DNA of 64,000 nt from Companilactobacillus formosensis (GTDB lineage Bacteria > Bacillota > Bacilli > Lactobacillales > Lactobacillaceae): NCBI RefSeq assembly GCF_005405305.1, contig NZ_BJDU01000006.1:124001-188000 (forward strand), in the 5' to 3' direction. A model generated the notes under the pieces. It saw only the letters and a list, made by a program, of their open reading frames with translations, searched no databases and was not told the origin of the DNA. Position numbers and translations under genes: made by a program. This document shows, piece by piece, positions 9,599 to 14,433 of the stretch; the stretch's first letter is position 1; the number at the start of each line of letters is the position of its first letter.

Positions 9599-10348
9599 CT
9601 AAAAGTATTGCAACAAGTCACTTTCAGTCAATTTGTCTTTTTCAGTTTTATCCAAATCGAGGATGATTTCACCCTTTTTTAAAACAATCAAGCGATTACC
9701 GTATTTCATGGCATCGGATAGGTCGTGGGTAATCATCATGCAAGTCAATTCTTTTTCCAAAATAATCTTGTTAGTTAATTCCATTAAATCCTTGCTAGTT
9801 TGAGGGTCGAGGGCGGCGGTATGTTCATCCAACAATAATAGTTCTGGGCGTTGAATGATTGCCATCAAGAAACTCAAGGTCTGTCTTTGACCACCAGATA
9901 ACTTCTCAGTGAAGGTATTCAAGCGATTGTCCAAAGTAGGCAAGTTAGAAATCAATTTTTGAAATTCAGGCATGTTTTCTTTTAATTTACGTAATCTTAA
10001 ACGTCTAGGTAAACCACGGCGCTTGGCAAGCAACAAGTTTTCGGCGACTGTCATTCGAGGGGCTGTTCCAGATTTGGGATCTTGATAAACACGACTGATG
10101 TGGCGACTTCTTTTGGCTAAATTTTCACCAGTGATATCGTCACCGTTGAGAAGAATTTGACCGGAAGTTAATTTGTTAGTTCCAGTAATGGCGTCTAGTA
10201 AGGTTGATTTACCGGCACCATTAGTTCCTAAAACAACTAAGAAATCTTTGGGATTGATAGTTAAGTTAATGTCGTTGAGAATATTGAGATTATCGTCGTC
10301 ATTATAAATGGTTTTGACGGCATGTTTAATTTCTAGTAATGGTTTCAT
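9599..10348 (-). CDS. trpZ: Tryptophan-type ABC transporter, ATP-binding protein
   Basis: This 249-residue cytoplasmic ATPase energises the permease encoded just upstream. Walker A is GTNGAGKST, the signature is LSGGQRQTLS, Walker B is LLLLDEHTAALD and the switch His is in THDLSDA. His in place of the usual Pro after LDE is a feature of this ATPase subgroup. It overlaps the permease gene by 4 bases and is the last gene of a three-gene operon. Assignment to tryptophan comes from the binding protein type and the leader RNA, not from this sequence. Confidence 0.82.
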   Translation of the reverse strand: MKPLLEIKHAVKTIYNDDDNLNILNDINLTINPKDFLVVLGTNGAGKSTLLDAITGTNKLTSGQILLNGDDITGENLAKRSRHISRVYQDPKSGTAPRMTVAENLLLAKRRGLPRRLRLRKLKENMPEFQKLISNLPTLDNRLNTFTEKLSGGQRQTLSFLMAIIQRPELLLLDEHTAALDPQTSKDLMELTNKIILEKELTCMMITHDLSDAMKYGNRLIVLKKGEIILDLDKTEKDKLTESDLLQYF

Positions 10349-11235
10349 TTAGTTTTAACCCCATTTCTCATAGTTTTTAAGAATTGTGCTCGAATCGTTG
10401 GTAGTGCTAGACATAATGCCAAGATGATAGCTGAGATCAACTTCAAATCGTTGGTATTGAAGCCTAGTTGTAGAACAATCATCAAGATTAGACGGTAAAC
10501 GATACTACCAATAACAATAGTAATCAGACGAATGCTTAGTGGGACGTCAGGATAAATTACTTCACCGATAATGATGGCAGATAGACCGATAACGATGACA
10601 CCGATACCCATGTTGACGTCCGCAAAACCATTTTGTTGAGCAATCAGACCACCCGTAATGGCAACGATTCCGTTAGAAACCATCAAACCAATGAACTTCA
10701 TAACAGTTGTGTTGATACCAAGGGATGCGGCCATTGTTTCGTTGTCACCAGTTGCGATGACGGCTTGACCTTTTTCAGTGTTCAAGAAAATGATCAACAA
10801 GAAGATGATAATAGCAATGATGATGATACCTAGGATAATACCGTTGAAATTAGTAGGTAATTTATCTAAACCAAATTGATTAAAGATATTAGTAGATTTA
10901 GTTAATGACATGTTGGCTTTGCCCAAGATTCTCAAATTAATGGAATAAAGTGCTGTCATTGTTAAGATACCAGCTAATAAGATAGGGACGTTTAATTTAG
11001 CATATAGAAAAGCCGTCGCAAAACCGGCTAAACATCCGAAGATAAAGGCAATTAAGAGTGAGTACAAAGTTGAGTGACCACTTTGAATCAAGCTAACGGC
11101 TGTTACAGCACCTAATGGGAAACTTCCTTCAACGGTCATATCGGGAAAGTCGAGAATTCTAAAGGTGATGAATAATCCGATAGCCATGATGGACCAGATG
11201 AAACCTTGACTGATAGTAGAGACGATTAGATTCAT
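10345..11235 (-). CDS. trpY: Tryptophan-type ABC transporter, permease
   Basis: The 296-residue protein is highly hydrophobic, with about eight or nine membrane segments, and belongs to the branched-chain-like permease group that accompanies TrpX-type binding proteins. The start SLFGLQ-type region is replaced here by FRILDFPDMTVEGSFPLG near residue 26, a stretch typical of this permease family, with DMTVEGSF conserved. It overlaps trpX by 4 bases and trpZ by 4 bases, so the three subunits are translationally coupled. Confidence 0.82.
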   Translation of the reverse strand: MNLIVSTISQGFIWSIMAIGLFITFRILDFPDMTVEGSFPLGAVTAVSLIQSGHSTLYSLLIAFIFGCLAGFATAFLYAKLNVPILLAGILTMTALYSINLRILGKANMSLTKSTNIFNQFGLDKLPTNFNGIILGIIIIAIIIFLLIIFLNTEKGQAVIATGDNETMAASLGINTTVMKFIGLMVSNGIVAITGGLIAQQNGFADVNMGIGVIVIGLSAIIIGEVIYPDVPLSIRLITIVIGSIVYRLILMIVLQLGFNTNDLKLISAIILALCLALPTIRAQFLKTMRNGVKTK

Positions 11236-12239
11236 TTGATTATTTGTCCTTTCTTTTGAGCTTGTTTGATGAGTGAATCAGAGAATTGAATGTTGAGTTT
11301 CTTGGCCATTTTTTCGTTGAGCATCAAGTGACCTTTTTTCATGAAAGTAACAGGAGTTGTAGCGGGATCTTCTTTGTGTTCGAGAATTCTAACAACGTGT
11401 TTACCAGTTTCTTCACCGAGTTCGTATTGACTCAAACCGACTGTTGCTAGTCCACCATCTTTGACCATGGTTGTAGCGGCTGGGAAAACAGCGATGTTTT
11501 GTTTAGTAGCGATAGAAGATAGAAGTTTCATACCAGAAGCGACGGTATTGTCAGTTGGAACGTAGATTGTTTGAACACTTTCAGCTAAAGCAGTTCCGAC
11601 TTGTTGGATATCGTTGACGGAATTGATACTGGAAACCTTGACATTAAAGCCTTTTTTCTTAGCGAGCTTTTGCATCTTCTTCATCTGGCTAGTTGCGGAT
11701 GCGTCGCTTGATGTATAAATAATACCGATAGTTTTGAGATTAGGAATAACTTGTTTCATTAAGTTCAGTTGAGCTTCAAGTGGTGCTTGATCGGAAACAC
11801 CCGTGATATTTTTACCTGGTTTATTGTTGTTACTAATGATACCGGCACCTTCCGGATCAGTGACAGCTCCCATAACGATAGGAATTTTTGAAGTAGCGTT
11901 CTTGAGTGATTGAACCGATGGAGTGGCGATACCAACGGCTACATCGACGTTATCTTGAACAAATTGTTTACTGATAGTCCGTAGATTACTTTGATCGTTT
12001 TGGGCGTTTTGAAATTCAATTTTGATATTTTTGCCATCAACGTAACCATTTTTCTTCAAAGTATCGTTGATTCCTTTGTTGATTTGGTCCAAAGCTGGAT
12101 GCGACATCAATTGCAGGATACCAACTTTAGGGATGGCATTTTGTTTCTGTGTATCAGCTCTTCCCGTGTAAAAATATGCAAAAACCAAGAACATTGCTAA
12201 TGCTATAAGTGTTACGTAAAGTCTTCTCGTATGTTTCAT
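11232..12239 (-). CDS. trpX: Tryptophan-type ABC transporter, substrate-binding protein
   Basis: The 335-residue product begins with a basic stretch and a hydrophobic segment (LYVTLIALAMFLVFAYFYTG). It has no lipobox Cys, so it is probably tethered by an uncleaved anchor or released by signal peptidase I. The body is a type I periplasmic-binding fold beginning PKVGILQLMSHPALDQI, a start shared by TrpX proteins of streptococci and lactobacilli. The ATG follows GGGGG and sits directly after a terminator hairpin. Upstream is a leader RNA with a Trp-containing peptide, which independently supports tryptophan as the substrate. Confidence 0.85.
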   Translation of the reverse strand: MKHTRRLYVTLIALAMFLVFAYFYTGRADTQKQNAIPKVGILQLMSHPALDQINKGINDTLKKNGYVDGKNIKIEFQNAQNDQSNLRTISKQFVQDNVDVAVGIATPSVQSLKNATSKIPIVMGAVTDPEGAGIISNNNKPGKNITGVSDQAPLEAQLNLMKQVIPNLKTIGIIYTSSDASATSQMKKMQKLAKKKGFNVKVSSINSVNDIQQVGTALAESVQTIYVPTDNTVASGMKLLSSIATKQNIAVFPAATTMVKDGGLATVGLSQYELGEETGKHVVRILEHKEDPATTPVTFMKKGHLMLNEKMAKKLNIQFSDSLIKQAQKKGQIIK

Positions 12240-12256: not shown

Positions 12257-12293
12257 AAAAAAGACAACCCCAGAGTTTTGTGGGATTGTCTTT
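12257..12293 (-). terminator. Attenuator terminator in the trpXYZ leader
   Basis: On the minus strand AAAGACAATCCCA pairs with TGGGGTTGTCTTT around an 8-base loop and is followed by six T. It lies between the promoter and trpX, so it must be bypassed for the operon to be transcribed. Confidence 0.85.
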
Positions 12294-12418
12294 AAAAATA
12301 AAATACCCACATGGCTAAATTGTTAAAACTTATCCATGCAGGCTTAAAATTTCATAGTTTAATAGGCCGACACGGATTCAATCCACTTCAGACTGAATCC
12401 ATCTCGGACCAATCTGAA

Positions 12419-12472
12419 TTATCGGCTTTGCCAACGAACGTTTACGATGTTTAGAGAGTTAAATGATTTCAT
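12419..12472 (-). CDS. trpXYZ leader peptide with one Trp codon
   Basis: The 17-residue peptide MKSFNSLNIVNVRWQSR starts at an ATG eight bases after AGGAG, so it should be well translated. The single Trp codon is at position 14, three codons before the end. A ribosome waiting for Trp-tRNA there would cover the GCCGA segment that competes in the downstream fold. The operon carries a TrpX-type binding protein, so a tryptophan-sensing leader fits. The peptide itself matches nothing I recognise. Confidence 0.7.
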   Translation of the reverse strand: MKSFNSLNIVNVRWQSR

Positions 12473-12503
12473 AATATATTCTCCTAACAAATTTGATGTC
12501 TCA

Positions 12504-12532
12504 AATATATTTCAATAATCACGGATTGTCAA
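12504..12532 (-). promoter_or_regulatory. trpXYZ promoter
   Basis: A consensus TTGACA is followed after 17 bases by TATATT. Transcription would start near 12497, shortly before the leader peptide. Confidence 0.8.
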
Positions 12533-12618: not shown

Positions 12619-13689
12619 ATGAAAAAAAATATACGGATTCTCTTGTCAGTAGGACTATTAGTCATTTTGGCAACAGTCTTTACTCATTTCGACAGTTTTT
12701 TGTACAAAAATCCAGTTATGAAAGTACAAGAAGTCCAGGTTTTACACAAGAGTACGTCAACTGATCAATATAAAAATACTGATACACAAATTACTCAACG
12801 TGTCAGTGGAACTTTATTGAATCGTAAACATGAAAAAGTAACTTTTAGGAATACGTATTACAAATCACAGTTGATCGATACGAAATATACGAAAGGTCAA
12901 CAAGTGATATTAACTAAATCGGGAAAAAATTATACTCCGCAAAATATTAAACGTGACACTAGCATTGTCTTTACCGTCGGACTAGTAGTTTTCTTGTTGT
13001 TCTGTATGAAGTTCGACCGTAAACGGCTATTCATTAGTGTTTTGATCAATGCAGTAATTTACTATGGTTTTATTCAAATTATCATTAAAACTCACGATAG
13101 TATCTTGTTGCCATTGACCGTTATAACGGCTTTGTTAATATCTGCAACGGCGTTATTAGTAATTCTAGGGCCGAGTTATCAAGCTTTAATGGCTTATGCA
13201 AGTACTGTTTTATCAACGACAGCGGCAATTTTGTTAAGTGTGTTTGTCTTAGGATTATCCAATTACAGTGGAATACATCTGGAATTGACTGATTTTGAAT
13301 TGCAGCCATATTTAGGTGTCTTTTTATCACAAGTTATCTTCAGTGTCTTGGGAGTTATTTTGGACGAGACGATGGATATTTCTTCTTCGTTGATTGAAAT
13401 GAAAAAAGAAGTTGCGGATATTGCTGAAAATAAATTGTTTAAATCCGGTATCAATATCGGTAAAGAATTAATCGGACCATTAATCAATATTTTGTTGTTT
13501 ATTGTTATTGCTGAAGACTTGAATGTGGTCTTGTTGTATTTGAGTAATGGTAACTCAGTAGGCTATACGCTGAATATGACCTTGAGTTTAGGAATTACTC
13601 AATTGTTGATCAGTGCAATCGGAATTGTTTTGACTGTACCAGTGACGAGTTTTATTGCTAGTCGAATAATTACAAGGAAGGTGAAATAA
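12619..13689 (+). CDS. YibE/F-family membrane protein, longer subunit
   Basis: The 356-residue protein has an N-terminal membrane anchor, an extracytoplasmic segment of about 90 residues with a small beta-barrel look (VSGTLLNRKHEKVTFRN, KGQQVILTK), and then seven or eight membrane segments. That order is the YibE/F family layout. The extracytoplasmic part is present in only the first of the two subunits. Function is unknown; lactobacilli usually encode it as a pair. It ends one base before the ATG of its partner. Confidence 0.8.
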   Translation: MKKNIRILLSVGLLVILATVFTHFDSFLYKNPVMKVQEVQVLHKSTSTDQYKNTDTQITQRVSGTLLNRKHEKVTFRNTYYKSQLIDTKYTKGQQVILTKSGKNYTPQNIKRDTSIVFTVGLVVFLLFCMKFDRKRLFISVLINAVIYYGFIQIIIKTHDSILLPLTVITALLISATALLVILGPSYQALMAYASTVLSTTAAILLSVFVLGLSNYSGIHLELTDFELQPYLGVFLSQVIFSVLGVILDETMDISSSLIEMKKEVADIAENKLFKSGINIGKELIGPLINILLFIVIAEDLNVVLLYLSNGNSVGYTLNMTLSLGITQLLISAIGIVLTVPVTSFIASRIITRKVK

Positions 13690-14433
13690 ATGTTATATCT
13701 ATTTTTGACCTTTGTTGTTTTGTTATTGATCGTCATGGGAACACGAGGTTTGACATTGTTATTTGGATTGGGAATCAACGTCGTGTCAGTCTTAGCTTTG
13801 TTGATATTGATTGCTGATGGGTTCAATATTTTAATTACTACCGGCATTATCGCCATGGTTATTTTAGTCGTAGCGATTTATATGAATGTTGATAATGGAA
13901 AAACTGCCAGCACAGCTTTTAAAACATCGTTATTGATAATGATAGTAATCTTATTAATTACAGTACCCTTGGAATTTTGGGCCAATGCGCAAGGCTTAGC
14001 GGCGGAAAATCAAGATGAATTGGAATCCTTCTCGTTAGCAGCCGGAATATCATATCCACAGTTGGCTATTTCTATTATTGTGATCAATAGTTTGGGAGTT
14101 ATCTCAGAAACTAGTGTTGCCATTACGAGTGGATTGAACGAAATCGTTGAAAGCAAACCTACTTTGACACCAACGGAAATTTTTAATGATGGTTTTTCTG
14201 TAGGGAACAAAATTTTGAATACGCAGACTAATACCTTGTTGTTCAACTTCTTCTCATCAACGTTCCCCTTGTTCTTTGTAATTCACTCATTAGGATATGG
14301 TGTTGGTGAAATCGTTAATGATAAATTGGTAGTGGCCGAGGTGTTGACTACTTTAATTTGTACGATTGGCGTTATCTTGACTGTGCCAATTACTTCTTAT
14401 TTAGTTTATCGGGGATCGAAAAAAGTCATATAA
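13690..14433 (+). CDS. YibE/F-family membrane protein, shorter subunit
   Basis: This 247-residue, almost wholly hydrophobic protein matches the membrane half of its neighbour: both contain a motif of the kind ISETSVAITSGLNEI / ILDETMDISSSLIEM and end in a similar LTVPITSYLVYR / LTVPVTSFIASR. That internal similarity shows the two arose by duplication and probably form a heteromeric membrane complex. The ATG abuts the previous stop codon, with AAGGAAGGTG as ribosome binding site. Substrate and role are unknown. Confidence 0.8.
   Translation: MLYLFLTFVVLLLIVMGTRGLTLLFGLGINVVSVLALLILIADGFNILITTGIIAMVILVVAIYMNVDNGKTASTAFKTSLLIMIVILLITVPLEFWANAQGLAAENQDELESFSLAAGISYPQLAISIIVINSLGVISETSVAITSGLNEIVESKPTLTPTEIFNDGFSVGNKILNTQTNTLLFNFFSSTFPLFFVIHSLGYGVGEIVNDKLVVAEVLTTLICTIGVILTVPITSYLVYRGSKKVI

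Follow-up and report, generated by a model that had tools for sequence, protein, structure and literature searches.

A probable ribosome-mediated attenuator of trpXYZ in Companilactobacillus formosensis and its codon-swapped relatives across Lactobacillales

The trp and his attenuators of E. coli combine a short ORF carrying codons for the end product with mutually exclusive stems and an intrinsic terminator. In Gram-positive bacteria, trp genes are usually controlled by a T-box or by TRAP, and in the Gram-positive leader family RF01743 the attenuator follows a leader ORF that contains amino-acid codons. A further means of sensing is provided by TnaC, an arrest peptide whose nascent chain senses tryptophan. 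The his attenuator of E. coli is summarised in the accessible part of PMC9413887, and Firmicutes have established or proposed cases of leader-peptide attenuation for His (hisS/hisZ in PMC2965389 and his operons in PMC9413887) and for Leu (ilv-leu of S. aureus, PMC5794164), RF01743 being the Leu/phe leader of Lactococcus lactis (PMC2864571). As far as the accessible parts of these four papers extend, the his and ilv-leu attenuators carry amino-acid codons in a leader ORF, as does the element described below, but for other amino acids, and none is reported for Trp uptake.

Another precedent is the trpB motif (RF04312), published in 2024 by Narunsky et al. and rated, in the accessible part of that work, a strong riboswitch candidate, with a classic attenuator left possible by its authors. 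The genes behind it were described as those of an ABC transporter for amino acids, itself uncharacterised, and in some cases trpB (PMC11109978). In the open-access literature the term "trpB motif" was found in that paper only, and a leader-peptide account of the motif or of Lactobacillales trpXYZ was not found.

Here we compare with these systems a locus from the window, by which we mean the whole 64,000-nt stretch of Companilactobacillus formosensis DNA that was analysed. The element ahead of its trpXYZ operon is very probably a ribosome-mediated transcription attenuator, and the same chassis, which Rfam lists under RF04312 and RF02863, would then constitute a retargetable sensor of aromatic amino acids in Lactobacillales.

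The trpXYZ leader in the window

The operon and its leader lie on the minus strand. The trpX gene (11232..12239), encoding the substrate-binding protein of a tryptophan ABC transporter, matches the NCBIfam TrpX equivalog NF041285 at 453 bits (cut-off 390), and its product is 98% identical to the TrpX of C. futsaii. The permease gene trpY (10345..11235) and the ATPase gene trpZ (9599..10348) of the same operon show ABC permease and ABC ATPase similarity below the equivalog cut-offs and are named by position. On the plus strand, two divergent hydrophobic genes (12619-14433; 356 and 247 aa) share a common intergenic region with the trpX promoter, and neither has an NCBIfam match.

The promoter itself, TTGACA-17-TATATT (12504..12532), agrees with the consensus at 11 of 12 letters. 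The region has six promoter-like sites in all, against 2.3 expected in shuffles, and hexamers resembling those of the window were recognised by eye upstream at trpX loci of the genus. Then follow a Shine-Dalgarno (SD) sequence, AGGAG (12481..12485), read directly and seen also at genus loci, and a leader ORF of 17 codons, MKSFNSLNIVNVRWQSR* (12419..12472; the asterisk marks the stop), likewise read directly and conserved in genus and family. The regulatory codon, a UGG (12431..12433), is the sole Trp codon of this ORF and stands three codons ahead of the last. Promoter, SD, ORF, lone Trp codon, and a strong terminator had all been claimed in the original prediction, and all were found.

Six segments, whose assignment rests on the coevolution and the genus pair counts given below and, for B, also on the fold, make up the remainder of the element. 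Segment Z (AGCCGA; 12422..12427) belongs to the end of the ORF and is a partner of the shoulder of C. Segment A (UUCAGAUUGGUCC; 12406..12418) lies right behind the stop codon and is a partner of B (12387..12400), the 5′ arm of hairpin P1. Segment C (12365..12384) comprises the 3′ arm of P1 and a shoulder, CCGUGUCGGC, and would act as the antiterminator strand. Segments D (12334..12343) and E (12305..12314) are the 5′ and 3′ arms of terminator T1, the latter followed by a U-rich tail that runs to 12291. A second terminator, T2 (12260..12293), has 13 pairs and was the one found where 0.1 would be expected in shuffles. As a whole, the 243-nt leader folds with a z of -7.0, equalled by 0 of 200 shuffles.

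Mutually exclusive pairings had also been proposed. TCGGC (12370-12366) does have two possible partners, GCCGA (12426-12422) and GGTCCGA. The pairing of TGTGGG with CCCACA, which would join T1 to T2, is real in the window but weakens, by eye, at L034, L036, and L037, and has therefore been left out of the model. Two features had been overlooked: the TGTGGG hairpin (12343-12305) is itself of the terminator type, with a U-rich tail, so that two tandem terminators precede trpX, and an additional alternative hairpin can form just past the stop codon, between 12418-12406 and 12400-12387.

The window also holds a sub-threshold match to RF04312 (12295..12405), scoring 33 bits against a gathering score of 59 (E 0.0071 for 441 bases); relatives in the genus reach 48.7 bits. 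P1 and the terminator of the motif occupy the same place, ahead of the same downstream gene, at the window locus. The likeness, judged against the accessible part of the motif's description, takes in the P1 hairpin, an antiterminator strand in its right shoulder, the terminator, and a position before amino-acid ABC transporters and trpB. The difference is that the Rfam model begins downstream of the leader ORF and omits the ORF, Z, and A.

Leader codons across Lactobacillales

That the leader ORF and its Trp codon would recur in relatives was borne out across the sampled Lactobacillales, with Phe/Tyr codons where the gene differs. Among 26 genomes of the genus Companilactobacillus, counting the best trpX locus of each and leaving out the second copies in G195 and G301, the ORF is present at 25. 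These leaders terminate in RWQSR* or GWQSR*; towards the N-terminus the peptide varies, and changes in ORF length amount to 3 or 6 bases. The exception, L035, comes from a 1.5-Mb genome (G043) that has kept trpX, and neither a leader nor an attenuator can be recognised where they would usually lie. In other genera of the family, a Trp leader was found in 36 of 39 picked trpX upstream regions when relaxed settings were included, and in 32 at strict settings (SD of at least 4); L192, L207, and L221 have no recognisable leader.

The same arrangement is seen when the hairpins, rather than trpX, are taken as the starting point. Of the 295 Lactobacillales genomes sampled, 150 contain RF04312 at E 5e-4, and 52 have a match above the gathering score. 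A phylum sample of 249 genomes yielded matches in four, with nothing convincing outside Lactobacillales in that sample: L072 is real and belongs to that order, and L073-L075 look false. Cases in Fusobacteria have been published. An SD-led ORF ends near P1 at 132 of 141 trpB-motif matches, compared with 15.7% in shuffles, and an SD-led ORF just upstream has Trp within its last ten codons at 119 of the 141, compared with 1.6% of 7,050 shuffles. The 22 misses consist of four Trp leaders with a weak SD, seven Phe/Tyr leaders, two Arg-Leu-Arg leaders, and nine matches judged false. The last of these, all leaderless (L073, L074, L075, L107, L113, L115, L120, L161, and L173), were dropped before folding. 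The leader ORF is independent of how the matches were found, because it ends 5 to 30 nt ahead of the RF04312 match at the 130 loci that were folded. Over those loci, Trp occupies codon -6, counted from the stop, in 65, -4 in 37, and -3 in 50; at least two Trp codons occur in 67 of the 123 Trp leaders, the window leader having one. Comparison of the sequences thereby demonstrates the ORF and its regulatory codons.

The regulatory codons also change with the gene that follows. For example, the genome to which the window belongs has another TrpX-like operon, at C9:54468, whose leader ends in FAFSFFFR*, and in one genome neighbouring substrate-binding genes have leaders FYFSYFR* and YYYSYYG*. All 21 loci examined for this TrpX-like paralogue carry a Phe, Phe/Tyr, or Tyr leader; at L233, L236, and L238 it reads FAFSFFFR* and lies just past 500 nt upstream. 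Four of the paralogues, when scored against the TrpX equivalog, reached 299-350 bits, under its cut-off of 390. A YYFSYFR* leader stands before aroE (L151 passes the TIGR00507 cut-off), and a Tyr-Tyr-Trp-Phe leader, TTRYYWFS*, before a transketolase whose protein falls under the curated score because it is cut by the end of the locus. Transketolase supplies the shikimate pathway. Since Phe, Phe/Tyr, Tyr, or mixed aromatic codons are set on the same chassis at these loci, the element would be a retargetable aromatic sensor.

Two of the Phe/Tyr leaders, those of L241 and L243, pass the cut-off of RF02863, "Enterococcus sRNA 2410", a family that is filed in Rfam as an sRNA gene and here appears as the Phe/Tyr version of the leader. 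RF02863 occurs in 115 of 217 Lactobacillales genomes. Its best-scoring 30 loci have a Phe/Tyr leader ORF in 27 cases at an SD of at least 4 and in two more at an SD of 3; the thirtieth, L296, is cut by its contig and was left out. These leaders precede aroE-like genes or the TrpX-like paralogue.

A tree of the substrate-binding proteins was built from 177 rows, reduced to 168 by dropping wrong ORFs or mis-assigned leaders (L044, L141, L159, L164, L236, L238, L291, L297, and L298) and to 125 by removing near-copies. One branch, with SH-like support of 100, parts 95 proteins with Trp leaders from 30 with Phe/Tyr leaders. This split is a single event, and related loci are not independent; further instances of the codon-gene match come from aroE, the transketolase, and trpB, and from gradations between Phe and Tyr inside the second clade. 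In general, then, the regulatory codons demonstrably match the downstream aromatic pathway, and some Trp leaders sit before other genes. A single modular, codon-programmable Lactobacillales chassis, retargeted by leader codon swaps among Trp, Phe, Tyr, and mixed aromatic (possibly also Arg or Leu) versions, probably accounts for both RF04312 and RF02863, and its codons would predict the substrates of unassigned TrpX-like transporters.

Several individual loci deserve mention. L043 has a two-Trp leader, IWQSWQS*, before an Opp4A-like oligopeptide-binding protein (318 bits, cut-off 650) and not before TrpX. L117 and L119, which lie ahead of ABC genes of the glutamine and Opp types, have leaders with RLRSQ* and RLRSR* endings where RWQSR* would be usual; these leaders could sense Arg or Leu, or could represent an Arg-Leu-Arg stalling motif. 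Directly behind the attenuator terminator of L042 there is what we take to be a group II intron, with an intron-like 5′ end and a maturase-like ORF. Finally, L115, one of the matches judged false, has a short ORF rich in Leu, LLDLHLFLLIIKSV, together with a terminator, before a gene that by eye resembles hydroxyacid/lactate dehydrogenases, with a T-box elsewhere in the locus.

Coevolving stems and the modelled switch

Covariation of the alternative stems, another check suggested at the outset, was examined by setting the duplex energy that a locus gives with its own segments against that obtained after swapping in partners from other loci, the pairings having been written down before the test was run. 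The 130 loci became 129 after loss of one without usable segments, and 62 after removal of near-copies. A locus's own pairing was better in 58 of 62 for A:B, 61 for B:C, 50 for C:D, all 62 for D:E, and 52 for Z:C (p from 7.6e-12 to 1.2e-6). Nine control segment pairs gave no significant home advantage over the same 62 loci; B:E was borderline (39 of 62, p = 0.055), and A:D was worse at home (p = 0.003). Because the five pairings coevolve and the controls do not, the RNA is to be regarded as a chain of mutually exclusive helices.

Within the genus (25 rows, L035 being left out), A:B and B:C consist of about 95% standard pairs (96% for A:B) with three two-sided pair changes each, and C:D and Z:C of 94-96% (96% for Z:C), the latter two being almost invariant and free of compensatory change. 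Thus, the anticipated covariation is present as coevolution over 62 loci, and as two-sided changes within the genus in A:B and B:C only.

A mechanism can be proposed on this basis. When charged tRNA-Trp is scarce, the ribosome would stall at the UGG codon of the leader, where it would cover Z and leave A free. Free A would pair with B, C would be released to form the C:D antiterminator, and transcription would continue into trpX. With abundant Trp-tRNA, the ribosome would proceed to the stop codon and cover both Z and A, in which case B:C (hairpin P1) and D:E (terminator T1) would form and transcription would end. T2 would provide a second stop, and Z may also hold C once the ribosome has been released. 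The stalling, the direction of the switch, and a response in vivo are inferred.

Like the trp and his attenuators of E. coli, this arrangement has end-product codons in a short ORF, exclusive stems, and an intrinsic terminator. Unlike them, it places the regulatory codon upstream of the first competing segment, giving a chain of A:B, B:C, C:D, and D:E, with Z:C in addition; it would also control uptake, trpB, aroE, and a transketolase, and its one to two Trp codons lie close to where the ORF ends.

The switch was modelled by folding RNA truncated before completion of the terminator, with a ribosome footprint placed at each codon. The set consisted of 130 loci, including that of the window; L117 and L119, which have no aromatic codon, and L182, where no terminator was found, were left out. 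On average, the C:D antiterminator gains when the A-site stands at codons up to -3, the gain being greatest at -6 to -4, and it loses at -2 to +2. With the ribosome at the Trp codon rather than at the ORF end, C:D is higher at 65, lower at 5, and little changed at 53 of 123 loci, and, among 57 non-redundant loci, higher at 30, lower at 3, and little changed at 24. Single loci can be stark: at L072, C:D is 0.96 at the second Trp codon and 0.02 at the stop, and at L052 the values are 0.91 and 0.03. For the window RNA the modelled values are 0.32 for a ribosome on the Trp codon, 0.28 for one at the stop, and 0.26 for the free RNA, a slight effect and no clear switch. The modelling thus favours the proposed switch on average, and barely so for the window copy. 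The ribosome is equally permissive whether it stands before the Trp codon or on it (123 loci, p = 0.55), so what the model says is that termination is switched on once the ribosome arrives at the ORF end. Conservation of the codon suggests that Trp is the place where the ribosome waits.

Competing explanations and relation to known systems

The leader peptide might instead be a nascent-chain sensor of free tryptophan, like TnaC, rather than a counter of codons. Gln follows a Trp codon in 112 of the 123 Trp leaders, as such a sensor might have it, and W-Q is absent from the other 11. Moreover, the Phe/Tyr leaders keep the layout without W-Q and with several cognate codons, and the downstream genes, serving uptake or synthesis, would be expected to be induced by scarcity. 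In view of the codon swaps, we consider a TnaC-like arrest very unlikely.

Alternatively, the hairpins could be a metabolite-binding riboswitch with the ORF incidental, as proposed for the trpB motif in the accessible part of PMC11109978. P1 and the terminator are conserved, in keeping with that proposal and with the authors' rating of the candidate, although they had left an attenuator possible. An incidental ORF sits poorly with the finding that most motif matches are preceded by an SD-led ORF with codons for the amino acid of the pathway, and that these codons change with the gene. A and C, furthermore, coevolve as alternative partners of B, and arms swapped between loci pair much worse. 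A riboswitch therefore seems highly improbable, and the sequence evidence favours ribosome attenuation responding to tRNA charging.

The original prediction held that an attenuator for tryptophan uptake would be new in this group. The attenuation reading is supported; the novelty is narrower, in that leader-peptide attenuation was already known in Firmicutes for His and Leu and the hairpins had been catalogued as the trpB motif. Within the open-access literature, the new points are a family of aromatic leaders that spans the order and swaps its codons on one chassis, the logic of its five helices, and the assignment of RF04312 and RF02863 to this family; sequence kinship of the leader to known systems was searched within Rfam. 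On this account, the nature of the trpB motif would be answered without waiting for a ligand. It also carries a warning, since an attenuator can pass for a riboswitch or an sRNA when its leader ORF falls immediately beyond the edge of the covariance model. The naturally codon-swapped pairs found order-wide, and even in one genome, offer material for studying how an RNA switch is programmed by ribosome stalling, and the aromatic substrate of an ABC importer may be predicted from its leader codons.

Control of trpX by a T-box or TRAP has next to no chance, in spite of the T-box control of trpXYZ in S. suis (accessible part of PMC9382623) and the 25 T-box matches in the window's own genome (six over the gathering score; one of the 25 lies 137 nt before trpB), for a covariance search with RF00230 found nothing at trpX with E allowed to rise to 10, just as had been predicted, and mtrB (PF02081) was not detected in the genome in a search for which the B. 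subtilis control was positive. If the T-box at trpB reads Trp, two tryptophan tRNA-charging sensors would coexist in one genome. Between that T-box (C1, 328648-328915) and trpB (329053) lies a mini-ORF with its own SD, MKNNRRWQTSN* (L249), whose RWQ core is the same as that of the trpX leaders.
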